Assembly: GCA_020692355.1 (NCBI GenBank)
Contig: JAIMKP010000002.1
Coordinates: forward strand, 1-64,000
Source of the DNA: Desulfosporosinus sp.
Lineage (GTDB): Bacteria > Bacillota > Desulfitobacteriia > Desulfitobacteriales > Desulfitobacteriaceae
DNA: 64,000 bases
Direction of reading: 5' to 3'
Shown: in pieces, positions 1 through 43,331 of the stretch
Position numbering within the stretch: the first letter of the stretch is position 1
Layout of the letters: every line of letters begins with the position of its first letter
Notes under the pieces: generated by a model
Database searches by the model: none
What the model was told of the DNA's origin: nothing
The model's input: the letters and a program-made list of their open reading frames with translations, nothing else
Translations under genes and position numbers: made by a program

Positions 1-64
1 TATCAAAGGTCTGCTTGATACATACGACAATATTCATGAGATTCTCCTCCTTGATCCAATCGTG

Positions 65-234
65 AGACTCCCACTTCTACAAGTGGGAGTGGTACCTCGT
101 ACTTTGCTTCGGTGACGATAGTCTCCAGTGGAGAGTATCGCCGAGCCGCCTTTCCCAATAGAAACACTTAGCGGCGACGGAGGTAGACTCCCCCACCGAA
201 GTCTCGATGTTCAGCTTTAGCTGAACGAGTTCAC
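65..234 (-). repeat. Structured 170-bp repeat, copy A (mobile RNA-like element)
   Basis: Read on the minus strand this starts GTGAACTCG and ends in a strong terminal hairpin (ACTCCCACTT / AAGTGGGAGT) followed by CT. It contains at least three more stem-loops: GTTCAGC/GCTGAAC, AGACT/AGTCT, and GATA-CTCTCCA/TGGAGAC-TATC. The first ~130 nt differ from copy B (43120-43290, opposite strand) at a single position. About 17 nt before the terminal hairpin are diverged. No ORF of note lies in it. It begins 3 bp past the stop codon of the acyl-CoA dehydrogenase. The architecture (non-coding, highly folded, hairpin end, several copies) resembles HEARO/omega-RNA elements or IS200/IS605 ends; that assignment is inference. 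Confidence 0.8.
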
Positions 235-3289: not shown

Positions 3290-3402
3290 TCTCCACCTGC
3301 TCTTTCACAAACTCCCCCAAAATCTAAGACTGAGGTTAAGCCGATTTTAGCAACTTTTTTCCCCAAGGGCAAGTTCTCCGGAGGTCAGTTCGTTTCAGTC
3401 AA

Positions 3403-3432
3403 GTGAACGCCCACTTGCAGAAGTGGGCGTCT
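3403..3432 (+). repeat. Minimal deletion derivative of the 170-bp repeat (copy C)
   Basis: This reads GTGAAC followed directly by the hairpin GCCCACTT-GCAG-AAGTGGGC and ends GTCT. Copies A and B share the first six bases at their left end and the same kind of hairpin plus GTCT at their right end, so this looks like the two ends joined after loss of ~140 bp. Its last base is the final base of the cobD stop codon on the minus strand, so the element abuts or completes the 3' end of cobD. The hairpin may also act as the transcript end of the cobalamin operon, although no U-tract follows. Confidence 0.6.
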
Positions 3433-4529
3433 CAGACGTGGATGGCCTTGAAGACTTGAATGAGCCTGGCCATACTCCCCTGATCCTTGATGGCCACCCG
3501 AATAAACTCGCCTTCCAGTCCCTCAAAGGAGGAACAGTCCCGTACCAGAATGCCGCGTCTGCCCAAACGCTCCGTCAATTGTTGAGCGTTCCCTTCCTTG
3601 AGTTCGATGAGGGCAAAATTAGCCTGCGTGGGTTTCAACTGCAAGCTTCTCAAGTCGGCCCCTGTGAAGCGCTCATAGAAAAAGGCCCGGCTTTCTTGCA
3701 GTTTTTCCCTCACCCAACCCGGAAAATCTCTATCCTCCAAGGCCTCCAGGCCGGCTTCCTGAGCCAAAACATTGACAGACCAGGGGTCGCGGGCTGTTTT
3801 CAGAGCACGAATCAGGCTCGGCTGAGCGAAGACTGTCCCCAGCCTTAACCCGGGCAGGCTATAAAATTTGGTCAAGGAATAGAGCACGATCAAATTCGGA
3901 AATTCCTGCAAATATTCCCGTGCCGACCAACGCAAGGCATCCAGCGTAAAATCATAAAATGATTCATCAAAAATAACCAGACAGCCCGAACGTTCGGCCG
4001 CCCTCATGATTGAGACAAACCCCTCTGGCGGCAAAAGGCTTCCTGTAGGGTTGTGGGGTGAGCAAAGAAACAACAGATCGATTCCATTCAGGATGCCGAG
4101 CCAAGTCTGTTCAACCTGTCTGGCTCTTTCGGGTAGGCGGCAGTCAGGAAGCGCCTGCCAGCCCTCGGCCCCAAGCGGCCAGTAGGATATGTTAGCGTGC
4201 ACAGCAGCGGCAGCCCGCGCATATTCACTAAAAGCAGGCACGGGAATAAGCACCTTCTCTGGTCGCAAGGCTTGCAGCAGGGTATAGATAAGTTCGCCCG
4301 CTCCGTTTCCGGCCAGAATCATGTCATAAGGAATCCCGCTCAATTGGCTTAATTTTAAGCGCAAGGCTTTGCTTTCCGGATCCGGATAGTGCACGATTTG
4401 AGACAGTGCCTCTTGCAGCCGCTGGAACACCCCTACCGGAGGCCCAAACGGGTTGATGTTAGCTGACAAGTCAATAAACTCATCCACATGATAATGCTCT
4501 TTAGCCCAGCGCAAGTTACCTCCATGCAT
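3432..4529 (-). CDS. cobD: Threonine-phosphate decarboxylase CobD
   Basis: A PLP fold-type I enzyme of 365 aa, related to histidinol-phosphate aminotransferase. CobD decarboxylates L-threonine O-3-phosphate to (R)-1-aminopropan-2-ol phosphate, the linker between corrin ring and nucleotide loop. Visible are SANINPFGPP at the N-terminus (typical of CobD), PHNPTG (Asn160), FDES (Asp188) and the Schiff-base lysine in SLTKFYSLPGLRLG (Lys221). It overlaps the upstream threonine kinase gene, which makes its substrate, by 14 nt. The ribosome binding site GGGGAGG lies within that gene. It is the last gene of the cobalamin cluster. Confidence 0.92.
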   Translation of the reverse strand: MHGGNLRWAKEHYHVDEFIDLSANINPFGPPVGVFQRLQEALSQIVHYPDPESKALRLKLSQLSGIPYDMILAGNGAGELIYTLLQALRPEKVLIPVPAFSEYARAAAAVHANISYWPLGAEGWQALPDCRLPERARQVEQTWLGILNGIDLLFLCSPHNPTGSLLPPEGFVSIMRAAERSGCLVIFDESFYDFTLDALRWSAREYLQEFPNLIVLYSLTKFYSLPGLRLGTVFAQPSLIRALKTARDPWSVNVLAQEAGLEALEDRDFPGWVREKLQESRAFFYERFTGADLRSLQLKPTQANFALIELKEGNAQQLTERLGRRGILVRDCSSFEGLEGEFIRVAIKDQGSMARLIQVFKAIHV

Positions 4530-15723: not shown

Positions 15724-15781
15724 AATGGTTTGTCTAAACATGCAAACACATCTCCTATCGCTCGTAGGTCAGTGAACATTT

Positions 15782-15929
15782 CAAGGTAGGTCTCCTGGCT
15801 TCAAATCATCATCCTCCCCCCTTCCCGGCTGAGGCCAGTGGGTTCGTGAGAGGACTCCTTGTTTCACAGTGGCGGGACCGCGCCGGAATCACACCGGCTT
15901 CCCAATTATCCTCAATGCGAGGGCCTTGA
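15782..15929 (-). promoter_or_regulatory. Cobalamin (B12) riboswitch aptamer
   Basis: Read on the minus strand it contains the conserved GGGAAGCCGGTG, the GATTCCGGCGCGGTCCCGCCACTGT block and the closing CCAGGAGACCTACCTTG. The outer CAAGG/CCTTG ends can pair as P1. These are the defining B12-box features, and the order is correct. It sits after the cbiD stop and before cbiET, so it controls the thirteen-enzyme run beginning at cbiET rather than standing at the head of cbiD. Confidence 0.96.
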
Positions 15930-16045
15930 AAACGTATTCAGTTTTACTTATCGTATTCGACACTAGACCTAAGATTCCTGCTCCCAATCCCGACAGCTCG
16001 TTACTTTTGCTATCACCTTACCCTCTCGGCCCATGCAAGTTTCCA

Positions 16046-24093: not shown

Positions 24094-25116
24094 TCATTTC
24101 CCGAACGGGCAATGCGGATAGGTGCAGACCGGGCATTCGAGGCAAAGGCCGCCGTGCCCCAGCTTGGCGATGTCCCGTTTCGTTAAGCGTTCACCAGCCA
24201 AAACCCGAGGGGCAATCAAATCAAACACGGTGGTCTTAGAATACATCACACATCCAGGTAGGCCCATGACCGGAATCCCATCCAGGTAAGCGAGGAGGAA
24301 CATCGCCCCCGGCAAAACCGGGGAACCATAGGTCACGACTTCAGCCCCCATCCCCTTAATCGCGCTCGGTGTCACATCATCGGGATCCACCGACATTCCC
24401 CCAGTGACCAGAACCATTTCTGCCCCCCGGGCGAGATGCTGCCGAATCCGCTCCTGGATCATTGGAATATCATCATCGGCAAAACTCTGTCCGATCACCT
24501 CTGAACCCCAGCCCTCAACTTTTGCCTGCAAAACAGGGCCAAACTTATCCTGTATCCGGCCGTGATAGACTTCGCTCCCAGTCGTCACCACCCCCACTTT
24601 CCAAGGCTTCAAGGGGCGGACTTGGAGAATCGGTTCAGCAAAGGTTCTGGCTGTGCGTTCAGCTTCTAATAGGATCGATTCTTCCACCATCAGTGGTACC
24701 ACGCGGGTGCCCGCCACTTTATCCCCAGCCTGAACTGGGCGGTGGCTATGCAAGGTGGCCAACACAATGTATTCCAGCGAATTCAGGGCCAGTATCCCTT
24801 CTTCTGTGGCATAGAGCAACCCAGGATATGCGGCTGTCAAGTTGACCTTCCCTTCATGGGGTTGACTGAGTAAGAGACCTGGGCCGGCAACAGCCATCGC
24901 TAAACGTTCAGCCGCCTCATTTTCGTGAATCAGTCCTGCGTTTTGATCCCAGACATAGATATGCTCTTTCCCCATGCTGAGAAGAACCGGAATGTCCTCT
25001 TTCCGTACGATATGCCCTTTGTGGAAGCGAACACCTTTTTTCTTACCGGGAATAATCTGAGTCATGTCATGGATCAATACACACCCTACGGCATCCTCTA
25101 CCCGAATCTTTTCCAT
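24094..25116 (-). CDS. MoeA-like molybdopterin-binding protein with C-terminal Cys cluster
   Basis: A 340-aa protein with a MoeA/CinA-type molybdopterin-binding domain in its second half (VGVVTTGSEVYHGRI, LVTGGMSVDPDDVTPSAIK, MGLPGCVMY). It lacks the full MoeA four-domain layout. The N-terminal part (VEDAVGCVLIHDMTQI) is typical of the variant found next to molybdenum enzymes in Firmicutes. The tail CLECPVCTYPHCPFGK holds four Cys and one His, a likely metal or FeS site. It is convergent with the MoxR/CoxE pair, whose stop is 10 bp away. Mo-cofactor handling for a hydroxylase or for the molybdoenzyme at 27-29 kb is likely. Confidence 0.85.
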   Translation of the reverse strand: MEKIRVEDAVGCVLIHDMTQIIPGKKKGVRFHKGHIVRKEDIPVLLSMGKEHIYVWDQNAGLIHENEAAERLAMAVAGPGLLLSQPHEGKVNLTAAYPGLLYATEEGILALNSLEYIVLATLHSHRPVQAGDKVAGTRVVPLMVEESILLEAERTARTFAEPILQVRPLKPWKVGVVTTGSEVYHGRIQDKFGPVLQAKVEGWGSEVIGQSFADDDIPMIQERIRQHLARGAEMVLVTGGMSVDPDDVTPSAIKGMGAEVVTYGSPVLPGAMFLLAYLDGIPVMGLPGCVMYSKTTVFDLIAPRVLAGERLTKRDIAKLGHGGLCLECPVCTYPHCPFGK

Positions 25117-25247
25117 CCTAAAATCCTCCTTTTCTCATAACGGAAGGCATGCTCATTTCTAAGCAGACCCCGGTTTCAGAAATCTGAAACGGCCGCTGGG
25201 CCATGGGCCGAAGCCTTTAGACTCCAGGGCTCGGTAGGTAAAAAGTA

Positions 25248-25276
25248 GCAAGAGGGAAAACCAGTTTCCCTCTTGC
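25248..25276. terminator. Hairpin between NrfD operon and MoeA-like gene
   Basis: GCAAGAGGGAAA and TTTCCCTCTTGC form a perfect 12-bp stem with a 5-nt loop. It lies ~75 bp downstream of the NrfD gene on the minus strand, and upstream of the MoeA-like gene. Only a weak U-tract is seen. It likely ends the molybdoenzyme operon transcript. Between the hairpin and the NrfD stop there is a short direct-repeat tract (variants of CTGACCT, 25310-25348). Confidence 0.6.
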
Positions 25277-43119: not shown

Positions 43120-43290
43120 GTGAACTCGTTCAGCTAAAGCTGAACATCGAGACTTCGGTGGGGGAGTCTACCTCCGTCGCCGCTAAGTGTTTCTATTGCG
43201 AAAGGCGGCTCGGCGATACTCTCCACTGGAGACTATCGTCACCGAAGCAGAGAACAGAATTCCCACTCCCACTTATAGAAGTGGGAGTCT
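43120..43290 (+). repeat. Structured 171-bp repeat, copy B (mobile RNA-like element)
   Basis: Same element as copy A (65-234) but on the opposite strand, 43 kb away. It opens GTGAACTCGTTCAGC, carries the same four stem-loops, is ~99% identical over the first 130 nt, then has ~17 variable bases and the terminal hairpin ACTCCCACTT-ATAG-AAGTGGGAGT plus CT. It lies in the gap between the PBP gene and a 57-aa gene. An ORF can be read through it into that gene, but this has no ribosome binding site and is accidental. Folding is far stronger than in flanking DNA, suggesting a structured RNA or transposon ends. Confidence 0.82.
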
Positions 43291-43331
43291 TAAACGCTTG
43301 GATCAAACTACATAACCAAAGGAGGATGTCT

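Follow-up and report, generated by a model that had tools for sequence, protein, structure and literature searches.

The present study concerned a short, structured element with two full copies, E1 and E2 (Table 1), in the window, a stretch of 64,000 nucleotides of DNA from Desulfosporosinus sp. It is very probably a non-autonomous element of the IS200/IS605 superfamily, that is, an IS200/IS605 MITE of the kind defined as PATEs (PMC3119063, PMC7290912). Its copies have subterminal palindromes at both ends and no terminal inverted repeats, are too short for a transposase and carry none inside (137 distinct copies compared, 72–328 nt), and adjoin a fixed short target without a target-site duplication, as seen at eight of eight empty sites. 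Empty sites in a sister species show that the element is mobile. An earlier inspection of the letters alone (the sequence-only reading) had offered two identities, a stand-alone omega-RNA/HEARO or a non-autonomous IS200/IS605-type element. The second is sustained by the fixed target without duplication, the subterminal hairpins, the many copies and the sister-species empty sites, and the accompanying remark that iscB, tnpB and tnpA are missing from the window was confirmed by whole-genome searches, which found none on the window's contig. In the mechanism proposed, a Y1 (HUH) transposase given in trans would bind both hairpins on single-stranded DNA and cut at TTNAT and TTCAC, and the excised circle would then reinsert. 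What had been suspected to be a guide RNA is thereby recognized as a mobile element whose limits and target are well defined, and about 1,000 copies are available for comparison.

Table 1. Positions of the element copies, their parts and adjoining target sequence in the window.
Feature	Position	Strand	Evidence and remarks
E1	43120..43301	+	size class with one module, 182 nt; flanked by A (43119) and ATCAA (43302–43306)
Left subterminal hairpin (CTCGTTCAGCTAAAGCTGAACATCGAG region)	43126..43152	+	folding; paired changes across 49 short elements
Central stem CTTCGGTG...CACCGAAG around interior	43153..43246	+	folding; compensatory changes
Interior module, ~66 nt, terminal arm CGATACTCTCCACTGGAGACTATCG	43173..43239	+	module profile; covariation
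Right subterminal hairpin (ACTCCCACTTATAGAAGTGGGAGT region)	43264..43287	+	folding; covariation
Host DNA, right half of target, ATCAA	43302..43306	+	TTGAT on the other strand; ATNAA also in empty sites
E2	56..234	-	179 nt; between bcd and etfB; target A (235) / ATCAA (55–51)
Putative ends-only relic	3399..3440	+	GTGAAC abutting right-end-like hairpin GCCCACTTGCAGAAGTGGGC + GTCT; weak, E = 0.019

Copy number and distribution

Left ends were searched for with the pattern GTGAACTCGTTCARCTNAAGYTGAACATCG, allowing up to three mismatches. The genome that contains the window (3.36 Mb in 101 contigs) has 124 of them, and a search of this assembly sorted the copies into three size classes. Altogether, around 1,010 left ends were counted in 28 of 61 genomes, the own genome included, and the reversed control pattern had no occurrence in any of the 61. 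A looser left-end pattern was dropped because its matches were mostly due to chance. The carriers are mainly Desulfosporosinus and its kin; among the matches listed are Desulfosporosinus lacus, metallidurans, nitroreducens, fructosivorans and acididurans, as well as Acididesulfobacillus acetoxydans, Desulfotruncus arcticus, a Dethiobacter MAG and Tepidibacillus decaturensis. Collections of plasmids and phages gave no match to the element.

E1 and E2 lie in inverted orientation 42.9 kb apart and are 98% identical over 137 nt, with the divergence mostly confined to about 17 nt preceding the last hairpin, and in both respects the sequence-only reading was correct. Over 175 nt, E1 is matched without any difference by two copies on another contig (C58), making three identical copies in the genome. 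Of the three copies that had been claimed for the window, two are real and at the places given, and the third is at best a weak relic: a sensitive scan of the window found a right-end match at 3407–3442 with E = 0.019, and the GTGAAC and hairpin there may be an ends-only relic. E2 is directly upstream of the ribosome-binding site of etfB, and the gene on its other side, bcd, encodes an acyl-CoA dehydrogenase. The bcd-etfB pair is a conserved operon junction (E2 region, 51–235), and the insertion could affect translational coupling.

A diverged element at locus L120 (3360–3605; G000, contig C75) has a different but still well-paired left hairpin, TTTTGC...GCAAAA, and a hairpin variant similar to it occurs at L125 (4242–4271). 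From these variants it follows that there is at least one further subfamily.

Insertion site, boundaries and mobility

The joined flanks of own-genome copies were searched against the sister species G001. All eight orthologous empty sites read AATAAA or AATCAA between the flanks, whereas the sequence at occupied sites is A-GTGAAC...TTGG-ATMAA, M being A or C, the exception being L025, where ATGAA now follows the element. The element is therefore GTGAAC...TTGG, inserted between A and ATMAA without duplication. Among the 137 distinct copies, ATNAA follows the element in 102 and A precedes it in 133. The boundaries of E1 were drawn from the alignment of genomic copies and from its empty site in G001 (GACA-AATCCA-ACTAC), which is one base changed from the target; at the site of E2, G001 has a degenerate remnant of about 61 nt. 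Since the limits of both copies are set by empty sites, the element extends about 12 nt beyond its last hairpin, as far as TTGG^ATCAA. The spans first assigned, 65–234 and 43120–43290, were correct in location but stop short of the true limits of 56–234 and 43120–43301.

On the strand that the transposase would read, the arrangement is TTNAT^CCAA...hairpin...hairpin...GAGTTCAC, with insertion 3' of TTNAT. This resembles ISDra2, which inserts 3' of TTGAT, likewise without duplication and with hairpins at both ends (PMC2806898); ISDra2, however, encodes TnpA and TnpB, while the present element is gene-less and its target is relaxed to TTNAT. In a test of 25 own-genome copies, the left-hand gene ran in the direction of the element at 19 of 23, a skew that probably arises because the target sequence lies at TAA stop codons and not from any function. 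In G014, the elements show a replication-strand bias, with 41 of 61 oriented along the lagging strand (p = 0.005), whereas the bias is absent in G003 (25 of 60). Such a bias is expected of single-stranded DNA transposition, and the contradiction between the two genomes counts against it.

Hairpins and the modular interior

The element had been described as structured, and folding agrees: the RNA fold is far more stable than that of shuffled sequences (z = -5.0), and so is the complementary strand folded as DNA (z = -5.8). In 49 short elements of 98–121 nt, pairing reaches 96–98% in the left, central and right hairpins, compared to 91–96% with shuffled partners, and double changes occur at one, three and three pairs, respectively.

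Copy length follows 112 + 66.5 n, where n is the number of interior modules (r = 0.97), with median lengths of 113, 179, 249 and 312 nt for n = 0 to 3; the largest element, of 328 nt, has three modules. Modules are present in both orientations and some are nested in the terminal hairpin loop of another, recognizable by a partial module match followed by a full one. The terminal arm of the module is 97% paired, compared to 85% when shuffled, and has 46 double-change cells. Template switching inside palindromes, known as quasi-palindrome mutation, can yield paired changes without selection. The paired changes of the modules therefore show structure, not function. The interior would grow by gaining hairpin modules of about 66 nt, and the probable route is recombination or template switching in the palindromic arms. 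This nested ladder is the new and unusual part of the element and a natural record of the stepwise building of large structured sequences. Quantised nested growth is, to our knowledge, unusual for bacterial MITEs, and a literature search for it in such elements gave no match. An apparent element of 1.3 kb (locus L041) was rejected, as it consists of a real short element joined to a later right end, with only host genes inside.

The PATEs of Haloquadratum and a PATE-like sequence in Halanaerobium also lack an ORF and terminal inverted repeats, have near-terminal palindromes related to IS605-type ends, cause no target duplication, and occur in many copies thought to be mobile in trans (PMC3119063, PMC7290912). 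The present element differs in its ladder of nested modules, each about 66 nt, and in that no parent transposon sharing both of its ends was found. That a simple PATE would not require a conserved interior is a point against a plain PATE reading. It could be speculated that the modules are recombining or inserting units that build increasingly large, recursively branched hairpin trees, the folded form being selected as a functional RNA or single-stranded DNA ligand of, e.g., a host protein or a nuclease acting in trans, in which case this would be a self-elaborating structured mobile element and not a passive MITE; we consider this improbable.

Alternative identities and the source of the transposase

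The element shares several features with HEAROs, which would fit a stand-alone HEARO, or IscB omega-RNA gene, whose guide directly precedes GTGAAC. It is structured; in the true HEAROs of relatives a hairpin comes after an initial GTGAAC or GTCAAC; and the iscB elements of G001 have a terminal hairpin and GTCTT...TTGATAAA, resembling the right end of the element (hairpin + GTCT...GATAAA), with the same orientation of the ATAAA flank. The likeness to GTGA that had been pointed out is thus real, but it is shallow, as it reflects a shared transposon end and not guide-RNA identity. The left hairpin and interior differ, and at thresholds up to E = 5 neither the HEARO covariance model (RF02033) nor any other Rfam family matched around E1. 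The same model scores 101–155 bits just upstream of iscB at 9 of 11 loci in relatives, the same genus included, so the test has power. The own genome has no match to the RRXRR domain of iscB (PF14239), and no copy was found that encloses, or is joined to, a nuclease gene. HEARO membership was rejected on the missing RF02033 match and the lack of iscB in the genome, and this identity is scarcely credible. Slightly less remote, but still very unlikely, is a role of the opposite strand as a guide RNA that serves a resident TnpB in trans, its guide lying 3' of GAGTTCAC. The own genome has TnpB genes with an RNA ending ...GTAGTTCAC, and the TTNAT target would serve as a TAM. Beyond TTCAC, which alone is common to both, the sequence and hairpins are unlike the right ends of resident TnpB elements, and identical geometry is expected of any IS200/IS605 element. 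About as implausible as a HEARO is a conserved cis-regulatory RNA or host small-RNA gene. Its strong covarying structure and the location of both window copies just upstream of genes would fit, but its location is not conserved (the sister species is empty at nine compared sites), both orientations occur, and insertion is exactly at A^ATMAA; single copies may still have been co-opted later.

A different question is whether the elements are mobilized by a REP-associated Y1 transposase (RAYT/TnpA-REP), which would make them giant relatives of REPINs. Both are short, dispersed and palindromic, and a RAYT gene is present in many carriers: of the 28 genomes with elements, 23 have a homologue, compared to 9 of the 33 without, an association that takes no account of phylogeny. 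In the own genome, classical Y1 TnpA genes number three (C8, C31 and C90), next to a single RAYT-like gene (C75:2567–3349), and the diverged full element with the other left hairpin begins 11 nt after the stop of the latter. TnpA-REP cuts at a CT dinucleotide (PMC8266576), and on the transposase strand the end TTCAC^T has such a step, but TTNAT^CC, the other end, has not. Several copy-rich genomes, among them G024 (151 left ends) and G014 (61), are without an intact classical TnpA, a point against the IS200/IS605 reading favored here; conversely, copies are abundant in G003 and G001, where RAYT was not detected. Adjacency of element and RAYT gene was seen at 1 of 30 RAYT loci and at none of the other 29, no GTAG guide motif was noticed in an unsystematic look, and the fixed target resembles that of classical IS200/IS605 elements. 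REPINs also differ from the present element in its asymmetric ends, fixed AATNAA target, length of up to 328 nt and branched interior. Taken with this evidence, mobilization by RAYT is a possibility but a doubtful one.

The non-autonomous IS200/IS605 element favored here calls for an enzyme given in trans. No autonomous copy was found in scans around Y1, TnpB, IscB and RAYT genes and 80 loci of other species; the fetched loci included no ORF-bearing version, and no transposase-bearing element with exactly both of these ends was found. The tnpB elements of the own genome end ...AGTTCAC, and many TnpB right ends in the same genomes finish in TTCAC, the reverse complement of the element's GTGAA. 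In our reading, the ends of the element and of the iscB and tnpB elements are all of one Y1-transposase kind. Because the ends of iscB, tnpB and MITE elements are alike in the same bacteria, these would be a good system for studying how transposases are shared by RNA-guided nucleases and their parasites.

At the Rfam gathering threshold, the window contains only a tRNA and two riboswitches, a cobalamin riboswitch at 15768–15943 (-) and a molybdenum/tungsten cofactor (Moco) riboswitch at 25110–25248 (-). At three loci in G028 and G036 (L208, L210 and L216), iscB is directly followed by a Y1 tnpA reading frame. These are apparently HEARO-iscB-tnpA elements; L208 and L210 have GTGAAC at the left end, and the right end of L208 reads ...ACTT^ATAAA.
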